IMG/VR virus record: IMGVR_UViG_3300048121_000680
Span: 1 to 31,991 of that record
Direction: 5' to 3' (one strand)
Origin: a virus
DNA: 31,991 nucleotides
How positions within the stretch are numbered: the stretch's first letter is position 1; the number at the start of each line of letters is the position of its first letter. The notes under the pieces are model-generated. The model did not search any database and had not been told where the DNA came from. It saw nothing but the letters and a program-made list of their open reading frames with translations. Both the position numbers and the translations under genes were made by a program. Shown piece after piece: positions 1 to 31,991 of the stretch.

Positions 1-99
1 TTAACATCTGCAACTGCTAAGTCAAAAAAACCTAAGAAAAAAATACAATCGCGTGGATTCAACGACAGCTATAAGCCTAATATTAAGGAAATTGATTGA
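1..99 (+). CDS. 3' end of the HNH endonuclease gene (partial copy)
   Basis: This frame gives the last 32 residues and TGA stop (97-99) of the HNH nuclease that is complete at 31595-31963. It is present only because the circular contig overlaps itself. The tail is lysine-rich and looks like a basic, probably flexible, DNA-binding extension. The TGA overlaps the ATG of the next gene (TGATG), as expected for translational coupling. Confidence 0.9.
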   Translation, partial: LTSATAKSKKPKKKIQSRGFNDSYKPNIKEID

Positions 100-127
100 T
101 GTATAAACGTAACAAATACAACGCCAT
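1..127. repeat. Left copy of the 127-bp terminal overlap
   Basis: These bases are identical to 31865-31991, so the contig closes into a circle of about 31,864 bp. A length of exactly 127 equals a common maximum k-mer size of de Bruijn assemblers. The repeat is therefore most likely an assembly overlap and not a biological direct terminal repeat. It contains the 3' end of the HNH nuclease gene and the start of the DUF1064 gene. Confidence 0.95.
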
Positions 128-428
128 CAAAGTTAAAGATGATGGCTACACATTTGACAGTAAGCGTGAACACGCAAGATATTTATATAACAAGCAAAGA
201 TTAAAGGATGGTGAGATAACAGAACTTGAGATACACCCGGTATATCAGATATTAGTTAATGATCAAAAGATATGTAGATATACTGCTGACAGCCAATATA
301 AGAATAAAGAAGGCACATTAATAGTGGAAGATGTTAAATCACCTATAACTGCTAGAATGCCTAGGTTTCGGCTTATAAAGAAGCTCATGAAGGCTGTGCA
401 TAATATAACAATTTTAGAGGTATACTAA
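99..428 (+). CDS. DUF1064 family protein, predicted phage endonuclease
   Basis: A 109-aa protein of the phage DUF1064 family, which is predicted to be a PD-(D/E)XK-type nuclease related in role to Holliday-junction resolvases. Visible family hallmarks are an N-terminal KYNAIKV...FDSKREHARY block, a central 'RYTADSQY' strand and a 'VEDVKS' motif that would supply the acidic and lysine active-site residues. The ATG at 99 overlaps the stop of the HNH gene; a TTG at 96 is an in-frame alternative. It ends one early block, next to a hairpin. A role in trimming recombination intermediates or packaging substrates is an inference from family and context. The assignment to DUF1064 is firm, the biochemical role less so. 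Confidence 0.85.
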   Translation: MYKRNKYNAIKVKDDGYTFDSKREHARYLYNKQRLKDGEITELEIHPVYQILVNDQKICRYTADSQYKNKEGTLIVEDVKSPITARMPRFRLIKKLMKAVHNITILEVY

Positions 429-465
429 AAAAAAGGGCAGTAGAAAGGATTAAAAACTACTGCCC
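427..465 (-). terminator. Intrinsic terminator read on the minus strand
   Basis: GGGCAGTAG (435-443) and CTACTGCCC (457-465) form a perfect 9-bp stem with a 13-nt loop. Eight A residues (427-434) lie on the left side, so the minus-strand transcript would end as stem plus U8, a textbook rho-independent terminator. Read rightward there is a strong hairpin but no U-tract. No minus-strand gene is recognised nearby, so it would stop leftward antisense transcription or an unseen leftward RNA. The rightward hairpin may still protect the 3' end of the DUF1064 transcript. Confidence 0.75.
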
Positions 466-521
466 AGTTGTCTGCGATCATAGGGGAGGAAAACAAGCAG
501 ACACACATATTAATAAAGATA

Positions 522-551
522 TTGACGTAATTGTCTATATGCGATTACAAT
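522..551 (+). promoter_or_regulatory. Strong sigma70-type promoter for the replication block
   Basis: TTGACG (522-527), an 18-bp spacer and TACAAT (546-551) each match the consensus at five of six positions. The predicted start is near 558, giving a leader of about 18 nt to the ATG at 576 that includes the A-rich AAGGA ribosome site. A perfect 7-bp inverted repeat, TAATTGT (528-534) and ACAATTA (547-553), covers the spacer and the -10 box and is a candidate operator. A second inverted repeat (TGTCTGC 469-475 / GCAGACA 497-503) lies upstream. Confidence 0.7.
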
Positions 552-575
552 TAAACTGTAAAAAAGGAAAACAAA

Positions 576-1331
576 ATGAGCTTACCATATTTTAATTACT
601 ACCCAAAAGACATGGGCTACAAAACAATGCACCTAACTTTAGCAGAGTTTGGCGCATACAACAGACTGCTATCACTTTGCTGGACTACACCGGGATGCAC
701 CATCCCAAAAGACATTGAATGGATTGCCAGAAAAATGCTTATTAGATCAGAGCAAGATAAAGCTGTGTTGTTGGCAATTTTAGATGAGTTTTTTATTGTT
801 ATAAAAGGGCAATATGCAAATAAGAGATTGCTAGAAGAATATAAGAAAAGTGACAGTAAGTATAAAATAAAAGTTAAAGCAGCTAAAAAAGGGGGAGCAG
901 CTACAGCATTGAAATATAAAGAAAAAGATAGCGCCAACAGGCTTGCAGATGATAAGGCCATAAGGCTTGCCAACCAGAACCAAGAACCAGAACCAGAACC
1001 AATTATTAATAATATACTATACAGAAAATGGAGGCCAAAAACATTAAATGCATCAACTAAGACAGCGCAGATGGTTCGTGATCATATGAGCAAAGATGTT
1101 TACGAGTTAGAGCTGGAAAAGTTTGTAGAATTTCACATAGACAATAAAACTGAGTCTACTGATTTTAACAGGCAGTGGCGTACTTGGTTAAAAAACCATT
1201 TCACATACAATGACAACAACAAAAAAGGAAAACAAAATGTCAGAAATAATAAAACTAACAAATACGCGCAAATCGGTGAGCAAAGACGTGCTAATCGGGG
1301 AAACTTGCTTAAAGAGTATCAACAGTCTTAA
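576..1331 (+). CDS. DUF1376/DnaT-like replication initiation protein
   Basis: A 251-aa protein. The N-terminal ~90 residues (SLPYFNYYPKDM, then a winged-helix-like 'LAEFGAYNRLL..CW') match the DUF1376/YdaU domain found in phage replication proteins. A lysine-rich linker and a repetitive 'NQNQEPEPEPI' hinge follow. The C-terminal part (about 145-205) has the pattern 'RKWRP...DFNRQWRTWLKNH', as in DnaT-like and other phage replication proteins that bring the host helicase to the phage origin. The start follows a clear A-rich AAGGA site 15 nt below the predicted transcription start. The gene itself carries iteron-like repeats followed by an AT-rich stretch (930-1020), which may be the origin. 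It overlaps the next gene, its likely partner, by 95 bp. Confidence 0.8.
   Translation: MSLPYFNYYPKDMGYKTMHLTLAEFGAYNRLLSLCWTTPGCTIPKDIEWIARKMLIRSEQDKAVLLAILDEFFIVIKGQYANKRLLEEYKKSDSKYKIKVKAAKKGGAATALKYKEKDSANRLADDKAIRLANQNQEPEPEPIINNILYRKWRPKTLNASTKTAQMVRDHMSKDVYELELEKFVEFHIDNKTESTDFNRQWRTWLKNHFTYNDNNKKGKQNVRNNKTNKYAQIGEQRRANRGNLLKEYQQS
930..1020. repeat. Iteron-like repeats with AT-rich tract inside the replication gene
   Basis: Direct repeats AGGCTTGC occur at 939-946 and 963-970, exactly 24 bp apart. A run of AACCAG/AACCAA hexamers follows at 972-1002, and then a nearly pure A/T tract at 1001-1020. Repeats beside an AT-rich unwinding element inside the initiator gene is the arrangement of the lambda origin within gene O. 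Here the repeats also encode the RLA and EPEPEP hinge residues, so the origin assignment is an inference. Confidence 0.35.
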
Positions 1332-1719
1332 AGGCTGGCCCAGAGATTTTGACTGTGCGCAAGATAAACAGATGGCAGCTGGGCAAAAGAAAAACATAGA
1401 GAAAGTCAAAGAGCATTATCTTACTACATTACAGCCAGCTAAAGCTAAAACTATATTAGGCTGCATTGAACTGCTTGAAAGCAGATACTATGAAGTTGCA
1501 AGACCGCCTGAGCTACAAAAGCAATTAGACCGCGAGTGGATTGCTGACATGAAAGACTATCCAGAAGATTTGATACATCAAGCTTGCGTGAATTGGCGAA
1601 ACTCAAGTCAAAGCTTTGCACCTAGATCAGCTGGCGTATTGATGGAGTCAGTCAAGCCTGAGTATGTTAGACGCAAAAGCTTATATTTAAAAGCTAAGTC
1701 AGTGCTGGAGTTGATATAA
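1237..1719 (+). CDS. Putative replication accessory protein (helicase-loader-like)
   Basis: A 160-aa protein encoded mostly downstream of, and partly inside, the replication initiator gene. The ATG at 1237 is preferred over the upstream ATG at 1210 because it follows an AAAAAAGGAAAACAAA leader identical to the one before the gene at 576. The C-terminal half, around 'LDREWIADMKDYP', 'ACVNWRNSSQSFAPRSAG' and 'LMESVKPEYVRRK', resembles small alpha-helical phage proteins (lambda P-like or other loaders) that follow the initiator gene. I cannot assign a family firmly. The overlap with the initiator and the TAATG link to the next gene indicate co-translation in a replication cassette. Confidence 0.6.
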   Translation: MSEIIKLTNTRKSVSKDVLIGETCLKSINSLKGWPRDFDCAQDKQMAAGQKKNIEKVKEHYLTTLQPAKAKTILGCIELLESRYYEVARPPELQKQLDREWIADMKDYPEDLIHQACVNWRNSSQSFAPRSAGVLMESVKPEYVRRKSLYLKAKSVLELI

Positions 1720-1952
1720 TGCTTATTAACAAAATACATGAAGAAGTACATAGAGCACCTTGGCTAGGTTTAAAGCAAATAGCGTTTGCTTGTAATACTA
1801 CCCCGGAAAGCGTCAGCTCGACACTATCCCGGTGCGGTACGTCATTTAATAAATTGAAGGCGCAAGAGATACGTAAGCTAAAGGATTTTGAGATAAACAG
1901 TAAAAGTTTTTTAGCTAAAGATGCTATAGAAGCTATGAGGTCTATAAAATAA
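1719..1952 (+). CDS. Small HTH-like DNA-binding protein
   Basis: A 77-aa basic protein whose ATG overlaps the previous stop (TAATG). Residues about 16-45 ('LGLKQIAFACNTTPESVSST' then 'LSRCGTSFNKL') read as a helix-turn-helix: a helix, a turn at NTTPE and a recognition helix. The rest is a charged helix. It is the last gene of the short replication cassette and is followed by an 83-bp gap with a near-palindromic site. A local regulatory role is possible, but no family was recognised. Confidence 0.55.
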   Translation: MLINKIHEEVHRAPWLGLKQIAFACNTTPESVSSTLSRCGTSFNKLKAQEIRKLKDFEINSKSFLAKDAIEAMRSIK

Positions 1953-1995
1953 ACGTAAAAAAAATACATTTAACACTTGTACATGTAAAAAAAAT

Positions 1996-2009
1996 AACAC
2001 ATATTGTGT
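1996..2009. promoter_or_regulatory. 14-bp near-palindromic operator candidate, copy 1
   Basis: AACACATATTGTGT is the exact reverse complement of the site at 4061-4074. Its core, ACACA-TAT-TGTGT, is an inverted repeat. It lies in the 83-bp gap between 1952 and 2036, over a possible weak -10 (TATTGT, 2002-2007) that has a TTGTAC (1977-1982) 19 bp upstream. Sharing the site with the late promoter region suggests one dimeric regulator controls both places. Confidence 0.5.
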
Positions 2010-2035
2010 AAATAGACAAAAACAAAGGATTTAAA

Positions 2036-2212
2036 ATGGACAAGCGTATAAAATATGAATTTATTTATTTAGATTTTGATCTAATGGATAAACAAGAAAA
2101 AGCAGAGGCACTTGCAGAGGGCAAAAAAGTATTGCGTGATTTATGTAATTTTGTAGTGCTTTCTACATTTGTTTTAACATTTACAGCAACAGCATTAGTG
2201 TGGGTAGGTTAG
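2036..2212 (+). CDS. Small membrane protein, 58 aa
   Basis: A short gene after the leader 'AAAGGATTTAAA' with ATG at 2036. The first ~35 residues are charged (MDKRIKYEFIYLDF, then a KQEKAEALAEG helix). The last ~22 (FVVLSTFVLTFTATALVWVG) form one hydrophobic span at the very C terminus, so it is probably tail-anchored with most of the protein in the cytoplasm. The stop is two bases before the next ATG. No homologue is recognised. The position in an early block of tiny genes fits a host-takeover or membrane-modifying role, which is an inference. Confidence 0.6.
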   Translation: MDKRIKYEFIYLDFDLMDKQEKAEALAEGKKVLRDLCNFVVLSTFVLTFTATALVWVG

Positions 2213-2213
2213 T

Positions 2214-2468
2214 ATGATGAGCACAGCAGCAATGACAGAAGAAGAGTTAAATAAGTATTATGATGTGTATGGTGAGTTTGAAAATTTGCCATTTGATATG
2301 GAAATTATGATGTATAGATTGCTTGATACATTGACAACTGAGCAAATAGAAGATGTGTTAGACCAAATAGATGCAGAAGGCTTACAAGAGCGAGAGTGGA
2401 AGATATTAGAGCGGAAACATGACAGGCAGTTTGGCGGTATGTACGCAACCGAAGAAACAGAGTATTAA
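2214..2468 (+). CDS. Small acidic protein of unknown function
   Basis: An 84-aa very acidic protein (ATG at 2214, with a second in-frame ATG at 2217) rich in Glu, Asp, Tyr and Met. It is predicted to be helical, with a segment 'LTTEQIEDVLDQIDAEGLQE' in the middle. The gene begins one base after the upstream stop and is followed two bases later by another tiny gene, so it sits in a tightly packed operon. Acidic phage proteins of this size often mimic DNA or bind host enzymes, but nothing in the sequence proves that here. Confidence 0.6.
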   Translation: MMSTAAMTEEELNKYYDVYGEFENLPFDMEIMMYRLLDTLTTEQIEDVLDQIDAEGLQEREWKILERKHDRQFGGMYATEETEY

Positions 2469-2470
2469 TC

Positions 2471-2581
2471 ATGAATAAAAGCAAGCATAGTTATAATAAA
2501 CCGAATAGTTTTTCGGGGTATTTTGCTAAAAAAGGCATAATAATTTTTATAGTAACTATCTTGCTTTATGGTTTAATTTAG
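2471..2581 (+). CDS. Very small membrane protein, 36 aa
   Basis: A 36-codon reading frame with ATG two bases after the preceding stop. Residues 1-21 are polar and basic (MNKSKHSYNKPNSF...AKK). Residues 22-36 (GIIIFIVTILLYGLI) are wholly hydrophobic and end the protein, giving one membrane span with the positive N terminus inside. Support comes from the tight spacing, the abrupt polar/hydrophobic division and the similar design of the gene at 2036. Its small size leaves real doubt about expression. Confidence 0.45.
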   Translation: MNKSKHSYNKPNSFSGYFAKKGIIIFIVTILLYGLI

Positions 2582-2594
2582 CTAGTCTTAGATT

Positions 2595-2834
2595 ATGGAT
2601 AACACTGTCAAAAGATATATACAGTATGTAGAGGTCACAGGAACTGATGCTGTTGTTGTATTAGACGACGGCAGTGTGTTAGGCGGTGTTTTTAGTGTGC
2701 AAGCTACAACTACTGCCCCGATAGAAGGTGAAGAAGAAACGCCATCACAAAGCTTTGCTAATATATTAGCCTACATACTACATGAAAATGTTACCTTTAC
2801 TGATATACAAACAGCAGACAAAACACAGCACTGA
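2595..2834 (+). CDS. Small protein of unknown function
   Basis: A 79-aa protein. The N-terminal half is beta-like ('YIQYVEVTGTDAVVVLDDGS', then VLGGVFSVQ), resembling a small SH3- or OB-like barrel. A Pro/Glu-rich turn and a helix (FANILAYILHE) follow. No family is recognised. It lies between a microprotein gene and the GcrA-like gene, with two bases to the latter, and no clear ribosome site precedes its ATG. Confidence 0.6.
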   Translation: MDNTVKRYIQYVEVTGTDAVVVLDDGSVLGGVFSVQATTTAPIEGEEETPSQSFANILAYILHENVTFTDIQTADKTQH

Positions 2835-2836
2835 TA

Positions 2837-3505
2837 ATGGCAAAGCATTGGTCAGATAGTAAAAAAGAGTTAGCTGCTAAGTTATGGGCTAATGCAGAAT
2901 TAAACACACATCAAATTGCTGAAAGATTAGGCTGTACTTATCATGCGTTGCAATTATTTGCATACAGAAACAGGCATATATTACCCAAACGCGGTTATGG
3001 TCAGATGCACAGACCTAATAATAAAAAAATAAAATTAGTAGCTGCAAAGCCTGTACAGATCACACGTTATAAAGATCCTGTTGCTATACACAAAGCGAGC
3101 AAGCTTTGGCATGATGGCTACGCTGTTGCGGCTATAATAAAAACACTAAAAATGGGCGACAAGACTTTCGTAAAAATGAGAAAGCACAGCCCTACAAGCT
3201 TCCCCAAACGTAATAAAAACAACAATGTGGTAAATATTGAATGGACAGATAAATTTATCAAAAGGCTAGGTTTTAACACAGTTACTGAATTAGAAGATAA
3301 TCTGGTCACAGCATCGTTTGCAAAACCCGGTAAAGGTTTTTATCTAAGAACAACAAGCGGTGATGGTTGGCTACATATGAGCGGTAAAACTGTGACAATA
3401 CAAAAACGCTACAGATACCGGGGCACATTGAGACAAGCGCTTAACATGAAAAAGACTTGTAGTTTTGAAGTAGATATAGTGCCAGAAGATAAAAGCAATG
3501 ACTAG
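2837..3505 (+). CDS. GcrA-like DNA-binding protein
   Basis: A 222-aa protein. The N-terminal ~50 residues ('HWSDSKKELAAKLWANAELN', 'THQIAERLGCTYHALQLFAYR') follow the N-terminal helix-turn-helix pattern of GcrA (WT.E....L..LW..G.S...IA..LG), the alphaproteobacterial cell-cycle transcription factor. A second HTH-like segment spans about 75-115. The C-terminal half (130-222) is basic and beta-rich and was not recognised; the C-terminal sigma70-binding part typical of GcrA was not seen. It overlaps the NusG-like gene by 8 bp, so two transcription regulators are made together just ahead of the late operon. A role in switching phage or host promoters is inferred. Confidence 0.65.
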   Translation: MAKHWSDSKKELAAKLWANAELNTHQIAERLGCTYHALQLFAYRNRHILPKRGYGQMHRPNNKKIKLVAAKPVQITRYKDPVAIHKASKLWHDGYAVAAIIKTLKMGDKTFVKMRKHSPTSFPKRNKNNNVVNIEWTDKFIKRLGFNTVTELEDNLVTASFAKPGKGFYLRTTSGDGWLHMSGKTVTIQKRYRYRGTLRQALNMKKTCSFEVDIVPEDKSND

Positions 3506-4055
3506 CTGGCACATACTCAAAACCAGAACTAACAGAGAGCTGTCTATACATGACTTTTTAGATAAAGAAGGCATCAGTTGTTACACACCATTTGACACAC
3601 GCATTTTAAGATCAAGTCATGTGCAAAGAAAGGCGCGGCAAAGAACAACATATATAGTCCCGGTGTTTACAGGTTATTTGTTTTTCAAGATAGATATACG
3701 CACAGACTTACCAAAGCTTTCTATAGCAACACAAAAGTGTAAAGATATTTATGGTATCATAATGAAAGACGATAGTGATTTGTATCGCATAAAAGATGAT
3801 GTCATTGATTCATTACGCGTTGCTTATCCTACAGGCTACATACCTAACGTACACATAGGCAAAAACAGGCAGCGCAAGATTGATTATAGTGCGCCAAGAT
3901 TTATTAAAGGCCAAAAGGTAAGGTTTAAAGCTGGGCCATTGCAAGGCATAGACTTAACAGTAGACAGGCAAATGAATGACCAGATAGACTTATTGATGGA
4001 GTTTTTGTCTAGTACCCGGAAGGTAACAGCTATGATTGATAGTATAAAGGTGTGA
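3498..4055 (+). CDS. NusG/RfaH-like transcription antitermination protein
   Basis: A 185-aa protein with NusG architecture. Residues 3-110 form an NGN domain: 'SWHILKTRTNRELSIHDFL', 'GISCYTPFDTRI', then 'YIVPVFTGYLFFKIDI', matching the W-x-V...P-L/V-F-x-G-Y-L/V-F pattern. Residues about 133-180 form a KOW domain ('FIKGQKVRFKAGPLQGIDLT' ... LLMEFLSSTRKV). NusG-family proteins clamp RNA polymerase at its clamp and gate and suppress pausing. Phage or operon-specific paralogues such as RfaH are recruited by a DNA element. The gene ends directly before the late promoter and a GC-rich leader with an ops-like GGTAGNNT core, so it is the likely late antiterminator. The family call is strong, the target is inferred. 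Confidence 0.85.
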   Translation: MTSWHILKTRTNRELSIHDFLDKEGISCYTPFDTRILRSSHVQRKARQRTTYIVPVFTGYLFFKIDIRTDLPKLSIATQKCKDIYGIIMKDDSDLYRIKDDVIDSLRVAYPTGYIPNVHIGKNRQRKIDYSAPRFIKGQKVRFKAGPLQGIDLTVDRQMNDQIDLLMEFLSSTRKVTAMIDSIKV

Positions 4056-4060
4056 TATAA

Positions 4061-4074
4061 ACACAATATGTGTT
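4061..4074. promoter_or_regulatory. 14-bp near-palindromic operator candidate, copy 2
   Basis: ACACAATATGTGTT is the exact reverse complement of 1996-2009. It starts five bases after the NusG-like stop codon and ends six bases before the -35 box of the predicted late promoter, a position suited to an activator or repressor. Candidate binders encoded nearby are the GcrA-like protein, the 77-aa HTH protein and the Cro-like protein. Confidence 0.5.
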
Positions 4075-4080
4075 GCCATA

Positions 4081-4109
4081 TTGACACAAAACCCCATATA
4101 TAGTAAATA
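4081..4109 (+). promoter_or_regulatory. Predicted late operon promoter
   Basis: A perfect -35 box TTGACA (4081-4086) is followed by a 17-bp spacer and a weak -10 TAAATA (4104-4109). A strong -35 with a poor -10 fits a regulated promoter. The predicted start near 4116 places the GC-rich leader at the very 5' end of the transcript of the 22-kb late operon. Confidence 0.55.
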
Positions 4110-4116
4110 TACGTTA

Positions 4117-4187
4117 GATCGGGCCGCGCGTACTTTGGTAGCCTCGCCCCCTAGCTGTACGCATTACAGCAGTAAGGCTTGCTATGC
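4117..4187 (+). promoter_or_regulatory. GC-rich structured late leader with ops-like core
   Basis: The 46 bases 4117-4162 are 67% GC, far above the genome. GCGTAC (4128-4133) pairs with GTACGC (4157-4162) around a 23-nt loop carrying GGTAGCCT (4137-4144). That loop element matches the GGTAGNNT core of ops/JUMPstart elements that recruit RfaH. A second bulged hairpin uses GCAT/AGCA (4161-4171) with TGCT/ATGC (4180-4187). An alternative GGGC/GCCC pairing (4121-4124 / 4146-4149) would compete with the first stem. It sits between the NusG-like gene and the operon that would need processive antitermination. Confidence 0.45.
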
Positions 4188-4213
4188 TTTTGAATAATAG
4201 GAGTTTTTAAAAA

Positions 4214-4321
4214 ATGGTTTTATGTAAATCCTGTACATCCCCGGTAACGTGTAAGAATAACAAACGCTGCATGAAAAAAGGCACATATAAACGCAAAACA
4301 GTAAAAAAGCGTAGATATTAA
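4214..4321 (+). CDS. Cys-rich basic microprotein, 35 aa
   Basis: A 35-aa protein with an excellent ribosome site, AGGAG (4199-4203), ten bases before the ATG. Four cysteines (C4, C7, C13, C19 in MVLCKSCTSPVTCK...RCMKK) suggest a small zinc knuckle. The rest is a Lys/Arg tail (YKRKTVKKRRY), so nucleic-acid binding is likely. It is the first gene of the late operon, 48 bp before the small terminase gene, where tiny Cys-rich proteins are found in other marine podophages. Function is unknown; a role in packaging or RNA binding is only a suggestion. Confidence 0.6.
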   Translation: MVLCKSCTSPVTCKNNKRCMKKGTYKRKTVKKRRY

Positions 4322-4369
4322 CCAACCATAAAACATAAGAAAAAGTCTAAAGTAGATAAAAGTAGAAAC

Positions 4370-4660
4370 ATGGCAGAAAAAGCTAAACGTAAAAAAACAG
4401 GTGGCCGCAAAAAAGGCGTACCTAACAAGCAAACTGCACTACTAAAAGATGCTATATTAACTGCTGCACAAAGAGCTGGTGGCAATGAAGAAGATGGTAT
4501 GGTTAAGTATTTAACAGATCGCGCATTAGACAATCCAACTGCATTTATGGGATTGCTAGGGAAAGTGCTACCGATGCAATTAGCTAATGATGATAGCGGT
4601 GAGCCATTTAAAGTTGTTACACGCATAGAGTTAGTAGCGCCAGAAAATGACGACACTTAA
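4370..4660 (+). CDS. terS: Terminase small subunit
   Basis: A 96-aa protein with the pattern 'GGRKKGVPNKQTALLKDAIL', then a GG-rich turn, 'YLTDRALDNPTAFMGLLGKV' and 'LPMQ', seen in small terminase-like proteins that precede terL in alphaproteobacterial and marine phages. The basic N terminus fits recognition of phage DNA, and the helical middle fits ring formation. It overlaps terL by 14 bp, the usual TerS-TerL arrangement. Small terminases diverge strongly, so the call rests on the motif and the position. Confidence 0.75.
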   Translation: MAEKAKRKKTGGRKKGVPNKQTALLKDAILTAAQRAGGNEEDGMVKYLTDRALDNPTAFMGLLGKVLPMQLANDDSGEPFKVVTRIELVAPENDDT

Positions 4661-5963
4661 CTTAGAGTTACCAGCAAAACTAATACCTGTATTTGAAGGT
4701 GACGCAGAAGTGCGCGGTGCTTATGGCGGCAGAGGTAGTGCTAAAACACGCAGCTTTGCGATGATGAGTGCGGTTAGAGGCGCTATCTGGGCTAGTGAAG
4801 GTAATAGTGGACAGATACTGTGTTGCCGGGAGCACTTAAACTCACTTGATGACTCATCACTTGCAGAGGTAAAAGCTGCAATACTTGGCAACGAATGGCT
4901 AACTAGCTGTTACGATGTTGGCGAAAAGTATGTAAGAACAGCAGACCATTTGCCCGGTAGGATAGATTACACGTTTGCTGGACTAAGGCATAATCTTGAA
5001 AGCATTAAGTCAAAAGCGCGTATTATGCTGTGTTGGGTAGATGAGGCTGAGCCTGTTAGCGAGTTAGCATGGGCAAAGTTATTGCCTACAATACGTGAAG
5101 TAGATTCAGAGGTTTGGGTAACATGGAACCCGGAACGTAAGAACAGCGCAACAGATAGACGTTTTAGACTAACACCGCCAGCTGGCAGTAAAATAGTTGA
5201 AATGAATTGGAAAGATAACCCTTGGTTTAATAGAACCCGGTTAGCCAGCCAAAGATTAGAAGATCAAGAAAAACGACCAGACAGCTATGAATGGATATGG
5301 GAAGGCGACTATGCCAGTGTGCATGAGGGTGCGTATTTTAGTAAGTTACTAGCTAATGCTAAACGTGAAGGCCGCATAGTTGATATGTTACCAATAGATC
5401 CAGCACTACCTGTTTATGGTTTTCACGATATTGGTGGCTCTGGTGCTAAAGCTGATAGTTATACTATTTGGTTGGCTCAATTTGTAGGTGATTGGATAAA
5501 CGTGCTAGATCATTACATAGCACAAGGTCAGGTGCTAAGTTATCACATCAATGAGATGCGTAGACGATGGCCTCACGCTATTATGCAGCTACCGCATGAT
5601 GGTGTTAATGAGAATAGCTGGACAGGTAAAAGAGTAGAAGATCATTGGAGAGATGGCGGGTTTGAGGTGTTAAAACCATTACCAAACCAAGGTAAAGGCG
5701 CAGCAATGCAACGTGTTGAGGCTGTAAGGCGCATATTGCCTAAATGTAAATTTGTAAAAGATAAGACTGAAGCTGGGCGTGCTGCATTAGGATGGTATCA
5801 CGAAAAAAGACCATCAGATGGTAGAGATGTAGGACTTGGCCCTAATCACGATTGGTCATCACATGATGCTGACAGCTTTGGCCTAATGGCGCTGATGTCA
5901 GATAAATTTAAAATAAAAAAGGCAAAGCCGTTGGTAATGCCTAATTATGGAAGTGCAATATAA
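4647..5963 (+). CDS. terL: Terminase large subunit (ATPase-nuclease)
   Basis: A 438-aa DNA packaging motor of the PBSX/Terminase_3-type family. Residues about 22-40 carry the Walker A loop 'GAYGGRGSAKTRSF'. 'IMLCWVDEAEPVS' (about 127-139) is Walker B with the catalytic Glu, and 'VWVTWNPE' is the coupling motif. The C-terminal RNase H-like nuclease shows 'YGFHDIGGSGAKADSYTIWL', 'LPHDGVNENSWTGKRVEDHW' and 'HDWSSHDADSFGL' for metal-binding Asp residues. Length and domains are complete. It works with the small subunit and portal to cut and pump DNA into proheads. The ATG lies inside terS and the gene runs 17 bp into the portal frame. Confidence 0.95.
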   Translation: MTTLNLELPAKLIPVFEGDAEVRGAYGGRGSAKTRSFAMMSAVRGAIWASEGNSGQILCCREHLNSLDDSSLAEVKAAILGNEWLTSCYDVGEKYVRTADHLPGRIDYTFAGLRHNLESIKSKARIMLCWVDEAEPVSELAWAKLLPTIREVDSEVWVTWNPERKNSATDRRFRLTPPAGSKIVEMNWKDNPWFNRTRLASQRLEDQEKRPDSYEWIWEGDYASVHEGAYFSKLLANAKREGRIVDMLPIDPALPVYGFHDIGGSGAKADSYTIWLAQFVGDWINVLDHYIAQGQVLSYHINEMRRRWPHAIMQLPHDGVNENSWTGKRVEDHWRDGGFEVLKPLPNQGKGAAMQRVEAVRRILPKCKFVKDKTEAGRAALGWYHEKRPSDGRDVGLGPNHDWSSHDADSFGLMALMSDKFKIKKAKPLVMPNYGSAI

Positions 5964-8010
5964 TATGCTAAAATATGATAATGATTTAGGCGTAGATGAT
6001 TCAAACAACACTGCAAGCGGTGTTGATGATGCTGGCAATGATGATTTGCTGTCAATGGTACGTGCTGAGTTTTCACAAAGCATTGGTATGTCACATGATA
6101 GCGATTTAACGTCATCAAGAGAAATAGCGCTGCGTTATTACAATGGCGATGTATTTGATGTATCTGTATTTGGACAGCGTAGTAAAACTGTAAGCACAGA
6201 CATAGCAGATAATATTGAGGCAGTGTTGCCTGACTTGGTTGATGTTTTATCCGGGGAAGATGTTGCTGTATTTCAACCTGTAGGTATTGAAGATGAGGAA
6301 GCTGCACAGCAAGAAACAGACTATATTAATCATGTTTTCTTTGAGCAAAACAACGGCTTTCAAATATTATATGATGGAATCAAAGAAGCGCTGTTATTAA
6401 AAACAGGTATATTTCGTTGGTACTGGGAAGAAGATACGTACACAGACACTAAAAACTTTGATCAACTAGATGGTCTTGGTTACATGACTTTGCTAGATCA
6501 GGGCTATCAATTAACGGAAGGCGTTGTAGAGGAAATTGGTGAAGATGAGATAACAATAACAAACGCTGTGTTTAGTAAAGAAATAACAAAAGGCTGCGTA
6601 AAAGTTGAAACAATACCAAGCGAGCGCTTTGCTGTTGGTAGAGATACAGTAAGACTTAGAGATGCAGCGTATTGCGTTGCCCAAATTGAAACACGTAAAC
6701 AGGATTTGCTAGATAAAGGTTATGACCCAGAAAAGGTAAACAACCTAACTAATGTTGACGCTATGGATAATGAAACCATAGCTGATGCTAGAGATGTTGA
6801 TACCATTGATGATAACTACAGCAACAGCATAGGGCCAATGCAGCAAGTCACAATACTTGAGCATTACATACGTGTTGAAGGTCAGATAAAACGACTAATT
6901 ACAGATTATGACAGCACTACAGTTTTAAGCGTAGAAGATGCGCAATATATACAATACTCAAGCATTTGCCCATATCCCATGCCGCACAGGTTTTATGGTT
7001 TATCGTTGGCTGACAAGCTTATTGAAGTGCAGCGTGTAAAAACAGGCATACAACGTCATATGCTAGATGAATTGTCATTTAGCCTAAATCAACGCATGGA
7101 AGTATCAGAAGATGGTGCAAATGAAAACACTATATCTGATTTGCTTAACAACACGCCCGGTGCGCCGATACGATCACGCAATGGCGGTGCCGTAAGACCA
7201 GTTCGGCTGGCTGGCAGTGGTTTTGATTATTTGTCTGCATTAGAAACAGCAAATGTCATGGCGGAGCGCCGCACAGGTATAATGCGCGGTGAAACAGGTA
7301 TGAAAGCTGACACACTGCACGATACTGCATCTGGAGCGCTAACAATGCTTTCTGAAGGCAAGAAGCGTACAAGATTAATGGCACGTATATTTGCTGAAGG
7401 CGGCATCAAGGACATGATGCTTGGCATACATTGCTTGATCAAAGAATATGCAACAGTAGCTGATTATGTAAGGCTTAGAGGTAAGTGGACACAAGTAGAC
7501 CCTACTAAATGGGGTAGACGTAACGATATGACTATTGAGATTGGTGTTGGCGCTGGTGGTAAACGACAAGAGGCTATGTTGGCGCGTGAAGTTATTAATT
7601 TACAGGCGCAAATTGTACAGCAACAAGGCGGTGCGCCAGAAGGATCACTAGCAACACCGCAGAGCATACACGCCGCGTTAGTTAGGTTTGCAGAGAAAGC
7701 TGGCATGAAAGCGCCAGAACTTTACTTCCCTGCACCACAAGAAATGCCTGAAGATGGGCCGCCGCCGCCAACTGATGCACAAGTAAAAGCACAGGCTGAT
7801 GCTCAATCTAAACAGCAAGAGATGGAGCTAAAGAAATACGAGATAGACAGCAAGATGCAGTTGGAGCGTGAAAAGTTAGCGCAAGCTGATGCAATTGAGC
7901 GTGACAAGCTCGAGCGTGAAACAGCACTAGCTATTGAGATGCGTAAATATGAACTACAAATGAAAGAAAAGATGTCATCATTTAGACCGGGAGGTAGCCT
8001 AATTACATGA
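5947..8010 (+). CDS. Portal protein (P22-like family)
   Basis: A 687-aa portal subunit, which forms the dodecameric gate at the capsid vertex through which DNA enters and leaves. The N-terminal part shows 'SREIALRYYNGDVFDV', typical of P22-like portals. The core has 'PHRFYGLSLADKLIEVQRVK' followed by TGIQRHMLDELSFSLNQRMEV, the conserved stem/wing region. Residues about 610-675 are a long Gln/Lys/Glu coiled coil like the P22 barrel. The start may be the ATG at 5947 or the one at 5965, which lies just after the terL stop; neither has a good ribosome site. The P22-type portal together with absent tail-tube genes supports a short-tailed virion. Confidence 0.92.
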   Translation: MEVQYNMLKYDNDLGVDDSNNTASGVDDAGNDDLLSMVRAEFSQSIGMSHDSDLTSSREIALRYYNGDVFDVSVFGQRSKTVSTDIADNIEAVLPDLVDVLSGEDVAVFQPVGIEDEEAAQQETDYINHVFFEQNNGFQILYDGIKEALLLKTGIFRWYWEEDTYTDTKNFDQLDGLGYMTLLDQGYQLTEGVVEEIGEDEITITNAVFSKEITKGCVKVETIPSERFAVGRDTVRLRDAAYCVAQIETRKQDLLDKGYDPEKVNNLTNVDAMDNETIADARDVDTIDDNYSNSIGPMQQVTILEHYIRVEGQIKRLITDYDSTTVLSVEDAQYIQYSSICPYPMPHRFYGLSLADKLIEVQRVKTGIQRHMLDELSFSLNQRMEVSEDGANENTISDLLNNTPGAPIRSRNGGAVRPVRLAGSGFDYLSALETANVMAERRTGIMRGETGMKADTLHDTASGALTMLSEGKKRTRLMARIFAEGGIKDMMLGIHCLIKEYATVADYVRLRGKWTQVDPTKWGRRNDMTIEIGVGAGGKRQEAMLAREVINLQAQIVQQQGGAPEGSLATPQSIHAALVRFAEKAGMKAPELYFPAPQEMPEDGPPPPTDAQVKAQADAQSKQQEMELKKYEIDSKMQLEREKLAQADAIERDKLERETALAIEMRKYELQMKEKMSSFRPGGSLIT

Positions 8011-8249
8011 CCAAAAAGGACAAAGCAGAAGCAAGTGCTGATGCAGTACAGGCAAAACGTGAATTGAAGCTGACAACCGCAGCACTAAAAAACATGGAAG
8101 AAACAGCAATGGAAAACTTGCTAAAAACTAAACCAGAGGAAGAACATAAAAGACGTGAACTCATAGCGCTTATCAATGTGTGCCGTGAGATTCCACGTAA
8201 ACTAAACAACTACATTGACACTCATAAGATCAACCAAGAAGGAGTCTAA
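8007..8249 (+). CDS. Small helical protein between portal and scaffold
   Basis: An 80-aa, strongly charged, fully helical protein (KKDKAEASADAVQAKRELK..., ending in 'INVCREIPRKLNNYIDTH'). The ATG overlaps the portal stop (ATGA), so translation is coupled. Small helical proteins are often found at this position in P22-like head modules. A role in assembling the portal or scaffold is possible, but no family was recognised. Confidence 0.65.
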   Translation: MTKKDKAEASADAVQAKRELKLTTAALKNMEETAMENLLKTKPEEEHKRRELIALINVCREIPRKLNNYIDTHKINQEGV

Positions 8250-8252
8250 GAA

Positions 8253-9224
8253 ATGAGTAATGAAGCCCCCTTAAGTATCGACCAAGCTGTAAGCGAGCTA
8301 ACACAGTTAGAACCGCCAAAGCCTGAAGAAGCAGAAACTACAAATGCTGTAGAGGAAGTAGAAGCAGAAGATACTGAACTAGATGGTGAACCAGAAACCA
8401 TCGACACTGATGAGGAGCCTGACGATAGCGAGGTCAACCTTGAAGATGAAGAAGTTGAGGAAGTTGAAGCGGAAGATGATGTTCCGTCAATCGATGCACC
8501 CCAATTCTGGACAGATGGCGCAAAAGATGTTTTCTCATCACTGCCTGCTGAAGCACAATCTGTTATTGCAGATGAAGTTAAGCGGTCACAAGCTGAAACA
8601 ACTAGAGCGCAACAAGCTGCGGCTGAAGCTACCAAGCAATCGGTACAGCGCATGGAAGAACTACACAATGTAATTGAGTCAGTGCACACTGAAACAGCTA
8701 CGTTGGATAGATTATTTGATCAGCGTTGGAAAGATGTAAACTGGGTAGAGATGTCACAAAGAAACCCATCTGAATACTTGCAAAATAAAGCGTTGTTTGA
8801 AGCTGAGTCGCAAGCCCTAGAGGTTCATAAAGAATCTGCGGTCACTGCACAAAAAGAATATGAACAACAGATATTGCAAGAAAACTTTGCAAATGCACCT
8901 AAGTTATTCCCAGATTTATTAGATGTTGTGAAAGGCCCGGAGATACAACAAACATTGACTAAGACGTTGTTATCACTTGGCGCGACACCTGAAGAACTCA
9001 GATTTGCAAAACCCGGAATGTTAGCTCTGGCATATGATGGTATTAAATACCGGGATAGTCAGAAGAAACTTTCAAAAACTAGCGCAAAACCTGTGCCCAA
9101 GGCAATCAAGTCAAAAGGCAAATCAGCAGGCAATGCAAATTCATTAAGAAAAGCTCGTGCTGCAAAGCGCTTCAACAAGTCTAATTCATTAGATGATGCT
9201 GTAGCGTTATTGTTATCGAGTTAG
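8253..9224 (+). CDS. Capsid scaffolding protein
   Basis: A 323-aa protein lying directly upstream of the major capsid gene. Residues 20-85 are extremely acidic (repeated EVEAED, DTDEEPDD, LEDEEVEEVEAED). Then comes 'PQFWTDGAKDVFSSLP', a long coiled-coil middle and a basic C terminus ('KALSSG'-free, Lys/Arg-rich, residues about 265-305) that would bind the inner coat surface. This composition and position are typical of scaffolds that template procapsids and leave before packaging. There is no protease motif. A ribosome site (AAGGAGTCTAAGAA) precedes the ATG. Confidence 0.8.
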   Translation: MSNEAPLSIDQAVSELTQLEPPKPEEAETTNAVEEVEAEDTELDGEPETIDTDEEPDDSEVNLEDEEVEEVEAEDDVPSIDAPQFWTDGAKDVFSSLPAEAQSVIADEVKRSQAETTRAQQAAAEATKQSVQRMEELHNVIESVHTETATLDRLFDQRWKDVNWVEMSQRNPSEYLQNKALFEAESQALEVHKESAVTAQKEYEQQILQENFANAPKLFPDLLDVVKGPEIQQTLTKTLLSLGATPEELRFAKPGMLALAYDGIKYRDSQKKLSKTSAKPVPKAIKSKGKSAGNANSLRKARAAKRFNKSNSLDDAVALLLSS

Positions 9225-9246
9225 CTATCAATAGGAGATTTTTAAG

Positions 9247-26604: not shown

Positions 26605-26863
26605 TTTTATTTACACCGGGCTTGCCATCATGGTATCGATGCAACATATCAAGCATCTGATTATGTATGTTTCTAATCTGCAATGACTTAGCCCATAAAT
26701 CTCTAAAATTACCTTCGGGATAATCAACGCCATTGTGTTTAGAGTTTACATATTCTGGCTCATCAAAAAACAATGTGTGTTGCCTCCATTGCTCATGCAA
26801 AAGTACAACTTCTCTAAATAAACGCCAGTATTTATCGTCAAAATTTTCTTTATGTTTAGCCAT
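26597..26863 (-). CDS. Small protein of unknown function, end of leftward operon
   Basis: An 88-aa, charged, helical protein rich in aromatic and His residues ('YWRLFREVVLLHEQWRQHTL', 'IRNIHNQMLDMLHRYHDGKP'). It shares one base with the upstream gene, and its 3' end overlaps the 3' end of the convergent late operon by eight bases, with no terminator between. No family was recognised. Its company suggests a nucleotide or recombination role, but this is only context. Confidence 0.6.
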   Translation of the reverse strand: MAKHKENFDDKYWRLFREVVLLHEQWRQHTLFFDEPEYVNSKHNGVDYPEGNFRDLWAKSLQIRNIHNQMLDMLHRYHDGKPGVNKIK

Positions 26864-27195
26864 TATGTGTCAAGCCTAGTTGTCTTTAAATTTCTGTCAT
26901 CAACAACAGAGTCATTTAACATTGCATCTCGCAACACAACTAGACCAGCTATAGCTTTAGTTATATGTGACAAGCCTGATTCTTGATCAATATCTTCACC
27001 ATCATACCAAGCTAAAAGATGACGCAATGTGCTGCTGTAGTAATCGCTGTAGTGCAAACGCTCAAATCGCCAATTGTATGTGCCATACTTGTCAGCACCT
27101 TCCGACAGCGAGTCAGCTATTTCATTTAAAACTTGCACAGGCGTATGTTGATATTGACGCTTTTTAAGACCAGCAACTCTTTTATAATTTTTCAT
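26863..27195 (-). CDS. dATP/dGTP diphosphohydrolase-like protein (DUF5664)
   Basis: A 110-aa member of the all-alpha MazG-like family formerly called DUF5664. It has 'SEGADKYGTYNWRFERLHYS', then 'YYSSTLRHLLAWYDGEDIDQ' and ESGLSHITKAIAGLVVLRD, with the acidic and His residues expected to hold the metals (E/D of GED..QESG, H of SGLSH). Family members hydrolyse dATP or dGTP to the monophosphate. The cyanophage S-2L relative MazZ works in the diaminopurine pathway. Start: ATG 27195 follows GAGGAAG in the NinB gene; a TTG at 27213 is the alternative. It overlaps NinB by 14 bp. Confidence 0.8.
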   Translation of the reverse strand: MKNYKRVAGLKKRQYQHTPVQVLNEIADSLSEGADKYGTYNWRFERLHYSDYYSSTLRHLLAWYDGEDIDQESGLSHITKAIAGLVVLRDAMLNDSVVDDRNLKTTRLDT

Positions 27196-27604
27196 TTTGC
27201 TCAACTTCCTCAATATTTATACCCCATTTAGCACACTGCGTTATAATTAACTCACATAGATCAGAGTGCTCTTTCACAGACATAGTTGATGTACGCGGAT
27301 GTAGTGGCAACATACCGCCGTCTAAATCTGGCATAAACTGTGTTTTAAATAAAGCAGCGGCAAACACTTGTTTCCAATCTTCTGTGCTATATTTACCGCC
27401 TATGTTGCTTATTTGCCACGCATTGCCATTCCAACGCATTTTTTCGCTAACTATCGTTAATAAGGCCCACATAAGCGAGTTTTGGTCTGTGCTACGTTTA
27501 TTGCGTTTAAATGTAACAAACGTGCCAGCTGGCGCTAAATCAATCAGACGCTTACATTCAAGCTTATCTTTATCCCTAGTTATATGTATAGTGTGCTGAC
27601 CCAT
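27182..27604 (-). CDS. ninB: NinB/Orf-family recombination mediator
   Basis: A 140-aa protein with the NinB (lambda Orf) signature: 'FKRNKRSTDQNSLMWALLTI' near residues 33-52, an insertion with 'STEDWKQVFAAALF', then 'LHPRTSTMSVKEHSDLCELI'. Lambda Orf binds ssDNA and SSB and helps load the annealing protein in place of RecFOR. It lies in the same operon as SSB, exonuclease and Erf, which is the expected partner set. The ATG follows the MTase gene directly. Confidence 0.88.
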   Translation of the reverse strand: MGQHTIHITRDKDKLECKRLIDLAPAGTFVTFKRNKRSTDQNSLMWALLTIVSEKMRWNGNAWQISNIGGKYSTEDWKQVFAAALFKTQFMPDLDGGMLPLHPRTSTMSVKEHSDLCELIITQCAKWGINIEEVEQNEKL

Positions 27605-28291
27605 TTAAAACATCTCTAACTGATTAGCAGCTTCATCTACTCGCTCACACGCAATGTTATAATACTTTTCACTGATTTCTATACCAACGCCACGCCTGCC
27701 AAGCTTCTCACACGCAACAAGCGTTGTACCTGTACCCATAAAAGGGTCTAATATAGACCCAGTAGCATTAGTCACTACTTTTTGCATTAAGCCTAAAGGT
27801 TTTACAGTTGGGTGGTCATAATCAGATTTACCAACACTATGTGTAAATATTCTTTTCTTATCACTAAGATCGCCTTGTGGGTGGTAGCCTTTATTCCAAG
27901 CATGAACATATATCTCCAACTCTGGCTGATAATGTTTGTTAGCAACAGGCATAGGATTTGTTTTTTGCCAAGCGCACATAGCATATCTTTTATATTTGCT
28001 TGCAAGGTCTGGCAATAATTTAGCTAATTGGTCATTATGACAAAATACTATTGCGCTACTATATAAATATGGATTTATTATATTGTAATCAAACCCCTTA
28101 TCTATCTTTGCTTTTTTTACATCTTTTAAGTATTTACGTTTGGCGTTCATACCACCACCGCTTGTCTGTATTTCATATGGTGGGTCACTAACTAGTGTAT
28201 CAAAATTACCAAGCTCTTGAGCAACACTTTGGCAGTCACCAAGTATTAATCGCTGACCACCTATAGTTATATCTTTTATTATAGCTGTCAT
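27605..28291 (-). CDS. Beta-class DNA methyltransferase (N6-adenine or N4-cytosine)
   Basis: A 228-aa methyltransferase. 'LVSDPPYEI' (about 34-42) is catalytic motif IV (DPPY). 'ILDPFMGTGTTLVACEKLGR' near 190 is the SAM-binding motif I. This IV-before-I order defines the beta class, to which alphaproteobacterial CcrM (GANTC) belongs. The target region lies between ('WQKTNPMPVANKHYQPELEI'). The extra C-terminal domain of CcrM is absent. There is no matching restriction enzyme, so it is an orphan enzyme for protecting phage DNA or altering methylation-dependent expression. Recognition sequence cannot be read from the protein. Confidence 0.88.
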   Translation of the reverse strand: MTAIIKDITIGGQRLILGDCQSVAQELGNFDTLVSDPPYEIQTSGGGMNAKRKYLKDVKKAKIDKGFDYNIINPYLYSSAIVFCHNDQLAKLLPDLASKYKRYAMCAWQKTNPMPVANKHYQPELEIYVHAWNKGYHPQGDLSDKKRIFTHSVGKSDYDHPTVKPLGLMQKVVTNATGSILDPFMGTGTTLVACEKLGRRGVGIEISEKYYNIACERVDEAANQLEMF

Positions 28292-30117: not shown

Positions 30118-30330
30118 ATGAAACATACTGTACAATCTATAATTGATAAATCAGGCGGCAAAGATGCTGTCTGCGAGATAATACCAAGTTTAAAGCCTGA
30201 TACACTGCGCAGCTGGAAGCGAATTGGTATCCCGGAGAAATATTGGGATAGACTCATTGATATGCACAAAACACGATTAACGGTTAATGAGTTGCATAAG
30301 TTAAATACTGTTGTGCGCGGAGGATGGTAA
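30118..30330 (+). CDS. Cro-like HTH regulator (carph-isopro type)
   Basis: A 70-aa basic protein. 'TVQSIIDKSGGKDAVCEIIP' and 'LKPDTLRSWKRIGIPEKYWD' fit the small phage regulator domain called carph-isopro (a GG-A helix-turn-helix with the IPxxYW ending), common in alphaproteobacterial prophages in the Cro position. AGGAG is six bases ahead of the ATG at 30118. Lying beside the divergent promoter region it probably represses or tunes early transcription. No CI-like partner was found. Confidence 0.75.
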   Translation: MKHTVQSIIDKSGGKDAVCEIIPSLKPDTLRSWKRIGIPEKYWDRLIDMHKTRLTVNELHKLNTVVRGGW

Positions 30331-31421
30331 TGTGGGTGCTACCGAAAAATTACCAACTGTCGTCAGTTTTTGCAGCGGATATGGTGGAATCGAAAGAGGA
30401 CTTGATCTTGCAGGGCTTGAACATAGAACAATCTGTTATGTGGAGATCGAAGCCTTCGCCATTGAAAACTTGGTGCAGAAGATGGAAAAAGGACTCATTC
30501 GTGCAGCACCTATTTACACGAATCTTATGTGTTTCCCAGCACAAATCTTTCGAAACAAAGTTGACATTATTACTGGAGGATATCCCTGTCAGCCGTTTTC
30601 ACAGGCAGGTAAAAGACAAGGAAAAGACGATTCCAGACACTTGTGGCCTGTCATCAGAAAACACATGGAAGCAATTAGACCTAATAGAGTTATGTTCGAA
30701 AACGTCGAAGGTCACATATCGCTTGGACTCTCCACAGTTATTAGCGACTTGGAAGAAGATGGTTACAATGCAACGTGGGGAATATTCAGCGCGCGTGAAG
30801 TTGGCGCACAGCACCAGAGAAAAAGAGTCTTTATCATGGCCGACAGTGATGGCATCTGATTGGAAAAATATGGATACTTGTAACCAAATGCAATTAGCTA
30901 AAGCCGTCAAAATTAATTGGCCGACAGCTACAGTATTTGACGCGACAGGCGGTGGCTATCCAACTGAAATAGTTAATGGTCAATACAAATCAAAACACAG
31001 CAAAGACCCAGACAGCGCTTGGTATGGCGCTAAATTAGCAGATGCAGTCAAAGTTAATTGGCCTACACCAGCTGCTAGAGATTATAAAGGTAAATCAGGA
31101 AAAGGCAGACAACAGAGAAAAAATAATCCATTAGATACATTACCAAACGCTGTAATGATAGATAATGGTGGCCCCTGCTATCTCAATCCAGATTGGGTAG
31201 AGAAACTAATGGGTGTACCAACTGGCTGGACTGCACTAGATGGCAATAGCAATGAATGGCAAAATAATTGGTCAGGCGATTGGGAAGGTAATACACCAAG
31301 AACAACTGATGTTAAAAAAGATAGAGTTGACCGCATCCGTATGCTTGGAAATGGCGTTGTTCCTGCGACAGCGGCTAAAGCTTGGACAGTGTTAAGCGCT
31401 AGATTAAATAAAGGAGAGTAA
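30330..31421 (+). CDS. 5-cytosine DNA methyltransferase, C-terminal part (TRD, motifs IX-X), start uncertain
   Basis: The conserved portion lies at about 30835-31421: 'SLSWPTVMASDWKN', repeated WPT/AV units ('KAVKINWPTATVFD', 'DAVKVNWPTPAARDYKG'), then 'YLNPDWVEKLMGVPTGWTAL' and 'RMLGNGVVPATAAKAW' (motifs IX and X). The frame has no stop back to ATG 30330, which overlaps the preceding stop (TAATG) six bases after GGAGG, so a 363-aa product is possible. Its first ~165 residues do not look like any domain, so they may be only the shadow of the overlapping catalytic half. Internal ATGs at 30849 and 30867 lack clear ribosome sites. Codons here (TTA, GGC/GGT) match the genome. Confidence 0.65.
   Translation: MWVLPKNYQLSSVFAADMVESKEDLILQGLNIEQSVMWRSKPSPLKTWCRRWKKDSFVQHLFTRILCVSQHKSFETKLTLLLEDIPVSRFHRQVKDKEKTIPDTCGLSSENTWKQLDLIELCSKTSKVTYRLDSPQLLATWKKMVTMQRGEYSARVKLAHSTREKESLSWPTVMASDWKNMDTCNQMQLAKAVKINWPTATVFDATGGGYPTEIVNGQYKSKHSKDPDSAWYGAKLADAVKVNWPTPAARDYKGKSGKGRQQRKNNPLDTLPNAVMIDNGGPCYLNPDWVEKLMGVPTGWTALDGNSNEWQNNWSGDWEGNTPRTTDVKKDRVDRIRMLGNGVVPATAAKAWTVLSARLNKGE
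30332..30859 (+). CDS. 5-cytosine DNA methyltransferase, N-terminal part (motifs I-VIII)
   Basis: A 175-aa reading frame with the catalytic half of a Dcm-type enzyme. Motif I is 'VSFCSGYGGIERGLDLAG', motif IV 'GGYPCQPFSQAG' with the nucleophile Cys, motif VI 'MFENVEG', and motif VIII 'QHQRKRVFIMA'. The target recognition domain and motifs IX-X are missing: the frame stops at TGA 30857, and the missing part continues in the +1 frame. GTG 30332 lies eight bases after GGAGG (30319-30323). Codon choice (CTT/TTG for Leu, ATC/ATT for Ile, GGA for Gly) differs from the rest of the genome. It is either the alpha part of a two-chain enzyme, as in M.AquI, or a broken gene. Confidence 0.8.
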   Translation: MGATEKLPTVVSFCSGYGGIERGLDLAGLEHRTICYVEIEAFAIENLVQKMEKGLIRAAPIYTNLMCFPAQIFRNKVDIITGGYPCQPFSQAGKRQGKDDSRHLWPVIRKHMEAIRPNRVMFENVEGHISLGLSTVISDLEEDGYNATWGIFSAREVGAQHQRKRVFIMADSDGI

Positions 31422-31422
31422 A

Positions 31423-31605
31423 ATGAAAATACAGAAATACAATAAGAATGGGGTAGAGTCTTTTTATACAGAGCATCCGTATTTCAAAAGAATGATGCTG
31501 CACCGGGCAAAGCGCAGAAAAGATACAAGATCACAACATCATTGGCAGAACCTTGTGAATAAAGAAACAACAGATGCACTTAGGAGATTGTTAGATGAAG
31601 TTTAG
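31423..31605 (+). CDS. Small basic protein of unknown function
   Basis: A 60-aa protein rich in Lys, Arg and His ('YFKRMMLHRAKRRKDTRSQH', then HWQNLVNKETTDALRRLLDE). AAGGAGAG (31411-31418) precedes the ATG at good distance, one base after the methyltransferase stop. It overlaps the HNH gene by 11 bases. Charge suggests nucleic-acid binding. No family was recognised. Confidence 0.6.
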   Translation: MKIQKYNKNGVESFYTEHPYFKRMMLHRAKRRKDTRSQHHWQNLVNKETTDALRRLLDEV

Positions 31606-31963
31606 TGAGCACCCGGATTACGTCAAATATAGAACGATTCCTAATTATCTTTATGCAAAAATTGCATTAGAGCAGTGTGGCAAGTGTGGCTGTGGATGTG
31701 GGAGGGACTTGGAATTTAAACAGCGGAGTATAAGAATTGAACACTTGGTGCAAAGGGCATTTCTGGGCAAACATGAGGAAGGTAATATAGCGCTCTGGTG
31801 CGTTAAGCCTTGCGCCCTCGCTAAAGACAAAAAAGATGCGCGTGCTAGAGCTAAGGTCAGAAGTTTAACATCTGCAACTGCTAAGTCAAAAAAACCTAAG
31901 AAAAAAATACAATCGCGTGGATTCAACGACAGCTATAAGCCTAATATTAAGGAAATTGATTGA
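31595..31963 (+). CDS. HNH endonuclease
   Basis: A 122-aa nuclease. Cysteines in 'QCGKCGCGCGRDL' and in 'LWCVKPCALAKDKKDA' would bind the structural zinc. 'IEHLVQRAFLGKHEEGNIAL' provides the first H (as EH in place of DH) and the N of the H-N-H core, with the final element in CALAKDK. The C-terminal ~35 residues are Lys-rich. HNH proteins of this size either act with terminases or home as mobile nucleases. Here it is coupled to DUF1064 (TGATG) and far from terL in this map. The gene spans the contig end. Confidence 0.8.
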   Translation: MKFSEHPDYVKYRTIPNYLYAKIALEQCGKCGCGCGRDLEFKQRSIRIEHLVQRAFLGKHEEGNIALWCVKPCALAKDKKDARARAKVRSLTSATAKSKKPKKKIQSRGFNDSYKPNIKEID

Positions 31964-31991
31964 TGTATAAACGTAACAAATACAACGCCAT
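31865..31991. repeat. Right copy of the 127-bp terminal overlap
   Basis: Identical to bases 1-127. It includes the end of the HNH gene and the first codons of the DUF1064 gene (ATG at 31963), whose full copy is at 99-428. Confidence 0.95.

Follow-up and report, generated by a model that had tools for sequence, protein, structure and literature searches.

IMG/VR virus record IMGVR_UViG_3300048121_000680 is the whole record of a circular, SU10-like marine podophage, and its 31,991 bases are the window analysed here. Two features of the window are considered together, the bases that flank its CCGG sites and a split C5 cytosine methyltransferase gene at 30311-31421. The window contains 48 CCGG sites, and by direct count all of them lie within CCSGG (S, C or G), 26 as CCCGG and 22 as CCGGG. 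The bases before and after the site are A and G at 16 sites, C and T at 13, C and A at 11, G and G at three, T and G at three, and C and C at two. Bare CCGG, with neither a C before nor a G after it, does not occur, and CCCGGG, CCAGG, and CCTGG (the latter two, CCWGG) are also absent. The first C of the sites is at positions 237, 690, 1803, 1829, 3327, 3418, 3660, 4016, 4241, 4826, 4954, 5130, 5237, 6251, 7157, 7987, 8937, 9013, 9050, 10220, 11605, 12189, 12455, 13891, 14594, 15110, 15605, 15870, 15935, 17488, 19081, 19386, 19689, 21030, 23808, 24193, 24807, 25645, 25862, 26284, 26441, 26616, 28317, 29069, 29706, 30232, 31503, and 31613. The direct terminal repeat of 127 bases (1-127, plus strand, identical to 31865-31991) is free of CCGG; therefore, the count on the circle is likewise 48. 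An earlier sequence-only reading had described 48 sites, each with a C before it or a G after it and never both, together with the absence of CCCGGG, CCAGG, and CCTGG, and our recount is identical.

From base composition, 50.1 CCGG, 30.1 CCWGG, and 20.0 CCSGG are expected, which reproduces the approximately 51 and 30 given by that reading for the first two and its statement that CCSGG occurs at about twice expectation. As a null model, we shuffle synonymous codons within the genome in 300 replicates, preserving the proteins and the codon usage. The shuffles contain 27.5 ± 4.4 bare CCGG (minimum 16), 25.3 ± 3.4 CCWGG (minimum 16), and 12.1 ± 2.9 CCSGG (maximum 20). None of the 300 approaches the observed 0, 0, and 48, indicating that the pattern does not come from codon usage and that the extreme flank-dependent avoidance in the window is real. 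In addition, GGWCC, which the earlier reading had not mentioned, is absent (0 against 13.7, minimum 7), GATC is lowered (52 against 81.6), and many 6-base palindromes are low. CCCGGG was also considered as a separately avoided site, but its expectation in the shuffles (0.4) is too low for its absence to be informative. The counts thus lie far under a null that preserves proteins and codons, and the motifs involved, CCGG, CCWGG, GGWCC, GATC, and 6-base palindromes, are orthodox Type II sites. Such a profile marks a phage exposed to several Type II restriction systems. As a separate observation, ACCGT/ACGGT is strongly low in the coding sequence of the window (2 against 24), though it is non-palindromic.

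The C5 methyltransferase gene is split over two frames of the plus strand. The alpha part (30311-30859; PF00145, E 1.6e-30) contains motifs I to VIII, including FCSGYGG, PCQPFS, ENVEGH, and QHQRKRVF, among them motifs I, IV, VI, and VIII. It matches the structures of the HaeIII and HhaI methyltransferases and is 64% identical to the catalytic open reading frame of a homolog on contig L067, which has the same two-frame layout. The beta frame (30324-31421; phrog_1008, E 3.6e-29), at +1 relative to alpha, is without catalytic motifs, which sit in the overlapping alpha frame; it carries variable WPT blocks of the target-recognition region, followed by LNPDWVEKLMG and GNGVVP (motifs IX and X). The two frames overlap by ~535 nucleotides. 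Over the catalytic part, the beta frame contains no stop codon, against 14.6 under random synonymous recoding and 3.6 when the gene's own codons are shuffled, where 0.5% of trials contain none. The annotation of Paenibacillus phage Tadhana has a pair of overlapping methyltransferase coding sequences. In an alignment of 14 sequences, the number and kind of the WPT blocks vary among homologs, which suggests that they may be exchangeable target determinants.

Relatives were collected with the SU10-type portal protein (5947-8010, plus strand; PF23899, E 5.7e-144) as the query, which gave 34 IMG/VR contigs with a related portal, most of them 98-100% or ~80% identical; with the contigs recovered through the capsid, methyltransferase, and YqaJ genes, the family comprises ~60. 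Bare CCGG is all but missing from them, so this part of the pattern holds beyond the window, whereas the CCSGG and CCWGG part differs by group. In group A (the window and the group with 98-100% portal identity), CCGG occurs almost only as CCSGG, CCWGG is rare or absent, and GATC is kept. In group B (G022, G023, G024, G026, G028, G031, and others), there is no CCSGG and no GATC, and CCWGG is normal or raised. In group C (G017, G027, G013, and G021), bare CCGG is missing, CCSGG and CCWGG are tolerated, and GATC is reduced. Group D consists of siphophages in which the SSB/YqaJ/Erf module is also present (L151-L154, that is G037 and G038; L155, that is G039; and L140-L145) and which avoid CCNGG, GGNCC, and partly GATC. 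GGWCC is absent across the 461 kb of groups A, B, and C, and bare CCGG occurs there five times in total, once each in G006, G008, and G009 and twice in G023. Thus several restriction dialects exist among close relatives, and that of the window is one of them. The dialects are genome-wide despite mosaic genomes, in which many genes are shared at 93-99% protein identity. For example, G026 (36.7 kb) has a capsid protein 98% identical to that of the window (SU10-type major capsid protein, 9247-10206, plus strand; PF17236, E 4.3e-76), and it contains no CCGG (28 expected in synonymous shuffles) and no GATC (73 expected). Such a total loss of CCGG would be expected from CCGG restriction without protection; therefore, what varies is the exemption by flanks. 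Two side observations concern the dialects. TGCGCA is absent or almost absent in group B, including the GATC-free G026, G023, and G024, and present in group A. G036 (L149-L150), either a natural recombinant or a chimeric assembly, switches dialect at about position 10,913, inside a tail-fibre-like open reading frame of 1331 amino acids: CCNGG, GATC, and GGNCC do not occur in 1-10,912 and are numerous beyond.

The dialects are readable when the same sites are compared between relatives. GATC sites of the window are retained at 71% in group A, 18% in group C, and 0 of 150 comparisons in group B; for its CCSGG sites, the values are 70%, 24%, and 0 of 112, respectively. Control four-base palindromes are retained in group B at 0.41-0.67. 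At homologous Pro-Gly codons, the third base of the proline codon toggles between S and W by dialect, so dialect switching is seen at single homologous codons. All 20 Pro-Gly of the window, which make up 20 of the 48 sites, are spelled CCSGG, all 32 of G026 are spelled CCWGG, and G027 uses CCSGG for 11 and CCWGG for 19. Part of the doubled CCSGG is therefore explained, because Pro-Gly must be written CCNGG and, with CCWGG forbidden, CCSGG is the sole spelling left.

These observations are probably best explained by host Type II restriction that removed unprotected sites, with CCSGG shielded by methylation, either the host's or the phage's. The hosts would carry several Type II systems, one cutting CCGG, one CCWGG, one GGWCC, and others GATC and further palindromes, and selection would strip the unprotected sites, mostly through synonymous change. 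CCCGG and CCGGG would be spared where a CCSGG-specific methyltransferase modifies these sites and blocks the CCGG enzyme; this methyltransferase may be the host's or, in carriers, the split C5 enzyme of the phage. Group B, presumably unprotected, has shed CCGG in almost all contexts as well as GATC, and the dialect would set the spelling of Pro-Gly, CCSGG in the window and CCWGG in group B. The sequence-only reading had proposed restriction pressure on bare CCGG and CCWGG with CCSGG protected. This remains the best reading, in that relatives drop or keep the same homologous sites, but we infer the restriction enzymes, the CCSGG methylation, and the supplier of that methylation. For the supplier, that reading had tentatively named the phage cytosine methyltransferase, a proposal that is weakly borne out: the gene is real and has all C5 motifs, and among contigs covering the locus, CCSGG is tolerated in 14 of 14 with the C5 gene and 7 of 12 without it (Fisher p 0.012, uncorrected for kinship, and with L068 and L126 being one contig). 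In addition, GATC-free contigs without the C5 gene hold 0-2 CCSGG, and L060, the only GATC-free contig found to carry the gene, holds five in 6 kb, a clear tolerance.

Some observations weigh against this explanation, either in its phage-encoded form or as a whole. The C5 gene does not accompany every case of CCSGG tolerance: the seven contigs G002, G027, L119, L127, L129, L137, and L138, of which G002 and G027 are full-length or near full-length, cover the locus and tolerate CCSGG without it. No methyltransferase is found among the 25 Pfam families listed, of 31 matched, for 31 early and accessory proteins of G027, L119, and G042. Phage-encoded protection is therefore not necessary and the C5 gene is at most one source; another source must exist, probably the host, whose methylation would be the simplest one. 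A further difficulty is the excess of CCSGG outside Pro-Gly. The other two codon phases of the window contain 25 CCSGG against ~4 when synonymous shuffling is barred from producing CCWGG, bare CCGG, or CCCGGG, and 24 lie outside Pro-Gly against 3.7 in a junction-preserving shuffle; a like excess is present in G002, G017, and G027. Avoidance and protection do not predict this approximately sixfold excess at equilibrium. We argue that, under a reversible mutation process, permitted sites should not become more frequent when forbidden ones are removed; therefore, a directional force is implied.

One candidate for such a force is positive selection for CCSGG, acting alongside the avoidance of the remaining motifs; CCSGG could, for instance, be a methylated self mark demanded by a host defence. 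The excess outside Pro-Gly, in the window and in the three other genomes, is what this would produce, but the nulls use the genome's codon usage, which is itself distorted by the dialect, and the function is only hypothetical; we regard this explanation as rather improbable. Another is a biased host repair or mutation of the Vsr type, which would write CCSGG and erase its neighbours. The same excess fits it, the alternatives at polymorphic sites are often CTSGG or CCSAG, and the rarer CTSGG form, CTCGG/CCGAG, is low in group A (10 against 20.9). However, the commoner form, CTGGG/CCCAG, is not depleted there (55 against 51.6), nor is CTWGG in group B, so the depletion of CTSGG predicted by this alternative, whose general form of a repair or mutation bias the sequence-only reading had also put forward, is not seen overall. 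Moreover, the inner transitions fall on synonymous codon positions, and a bias cannot yield the exact zeros of CCWGG, GGWCC, and bare CCGG or of GATC in group B. A Vsr-type process as the cause is thus highly unlikely.

The tolerance of CCSGG in contigs without a detected methyltransferase would be accommodated if methylation played no part, with an enzyme acting on groups A and C that cuts CCGG only when it lacks a left C or a right G, and another acting on group B that cuts it in all contexts. This demands a pair of enzymes and an uncommon preference against certain flanks, and a single CCGG pressure is a simpler account of the near-absence of bare CCGG from all four groups, A to D; we consider this arrangement conceivable but unlikely. 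Codon usage and amino-acid content alone would account for the 20 of 48 sites at which Pro-Gly forces CCNGG, but neither the synonymous nor the junction-preserving shuffles ever attain the observed values, and we count this explanation as refuted.

The same pressure appears to reach the proteins in group D. Against the expectation from amino-acid composition for each dipeptide, G038 (23.4 kb) has no Pro-Gly and no Gly-Pro (14.1 expected), G039 (20 kb) has neither (11.4), and G037 (22.5 kb) has no Pro-Gly and one Gly-Pro (13.4). Six group D contigs, partly redundant in sequence, together have one Pro-Gly and no Gly-Pro against 39.8 expected each. Pro-Gly stays close to expectation in group A (78/92), group B (88/85), and group C (101/96), with Gly-Pro at about half. 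Homologous positions at which the family of the window has Pro-Gly are occupied in group D by Val-Gly, Ala-Gly, Asn-Gly, or Pro-Asn. Restriction at CCNGG and GGNCC thus seems, on balance, to edit proteins, Pro-Gly and Gly-Pro being nearly eliminated in the sampled proteins, whereas relatives in which CCSGG is shielded or CCWGG is tolerated only respell Pro-Gly. Although this loss lies outside the window, the same pressure would lead to it, and no other result of the analysis is as unexpected.

Other genes were weighed as tolerance factors and set aside. An N6/N4 DNA methyltransferase with a DPPY motif (27605-28291, minus strand; PF01555, E 7.2e-21) was rejected as the CCSGG protector, as the tolerant G010, G017, and G027 have no match and it is present in phages nearly without CCNGG. 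It is a candidate GATC methyltransferase, its close homologs all being in GATC-keeping contigs. L101-L107, other phages with a close homolog, nearly lack CCNGG and keep GATC. A dATP/dGTP diphosphohydrolase domain protein (26863-27213, minus strand; PF18909, E 2e-23) is found in all four tolerant complete or near-complete genomes and is absent from G026, yet it also occurs in GATC-free, CCSGG-free contigs such as L120. A 72-residue gene after the capsid gene looks dialect-specific in the table of open reading frames, but tblastn finds it in all genomes. As a side observation, a PAPS-reductase-like gene adjoins an HNH gene in G027 (L051:5858-6610), which tolerates CCSGG although no methyltransferase was detected in it; the gene is also present in L056, L057, and L060.

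The remaining genes of the window include the terminase large subunit (Terminase_3; 4647-5963, plus strand; PF04466), an adaptor that, like the portal and capsid proteins, is of the SU10 group, SSB, the YqaJ exonuclease, and the Erf annealing protein. There is no close cultured phage, the relatives in the phage database being mostly Proteobacteria phages at <60% identity. When 84,980 genomes were scanned with the portal and capsid proteins, neither a host nor a closely related prophage emerged, the sole match being one of 30% in a Xanthobacteraceae metagenome-assembled genome; tRNA genes that might point to a host are not found either.

Which sites are avoided hinges on a single flanking base and varies between phages whose capsid genes are near-identical, and individual codons reveal it. 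Metagenomic phage sequences thereby come to document which restriction and methylation systems uncultured hosts possess. The pattern also provides a case in which DNA restriction appears to delete specific dipeptides from a viral proteome, and the spared CCSGG points to a concrete methyltransferase candidate that is open to testing. The papers searched contain no precedent for the flank-dependent pattern or for restriction-driven dipeptide loss, which is not proof that none exists; flank dependence, dialect switching, and dipeptide loss are apparently new.

Bacillus phages SPR, phi3T, and rho11s have multispecific C5 methyltransferases, and M.SPRI targets GGCC, CCGG, and CCWGG. These enzymes carry exchangeable target-recognition blocks, and the WPT blocks that lie between motifs VIII and IX in the C5 enzyme of the window may be of this kind; unlike the M.SPRI type, its gene is split over two frames, and phages that carry it continue to avoid bare CCGG, those of group A also CCWGG. 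In the split C5 methyltransferases M.AquI and M.BsuMI (YdiO/YdiP), one chain carries the catalytic motifs I-VIII and another the target-recognition region with motifs IX-X. The predicted window enzyme has the same division, but its second part is an overlapping frame, with an overlap of ~535 nucleotides, and is open across most of the catalytic domain. HpaII recognizes CCGG, EcoRII CCWGG, AvaII GGWCC, MboI GATC, and BcnI/NciI CCSGG; these are the motifs avoided or spared here, a likeness by motif only. Restriction-site avoidance in phages is a known phenomenon (Rusinov et al. 2018, PMC6286503). As in the avoidance described there, the window fully loses orthodox Type II palindromes beyond what base composition predicts; unlike it, here one flanking base decides, close relatives switch, and a group sharing a gene module is affected at the amino-acid level.

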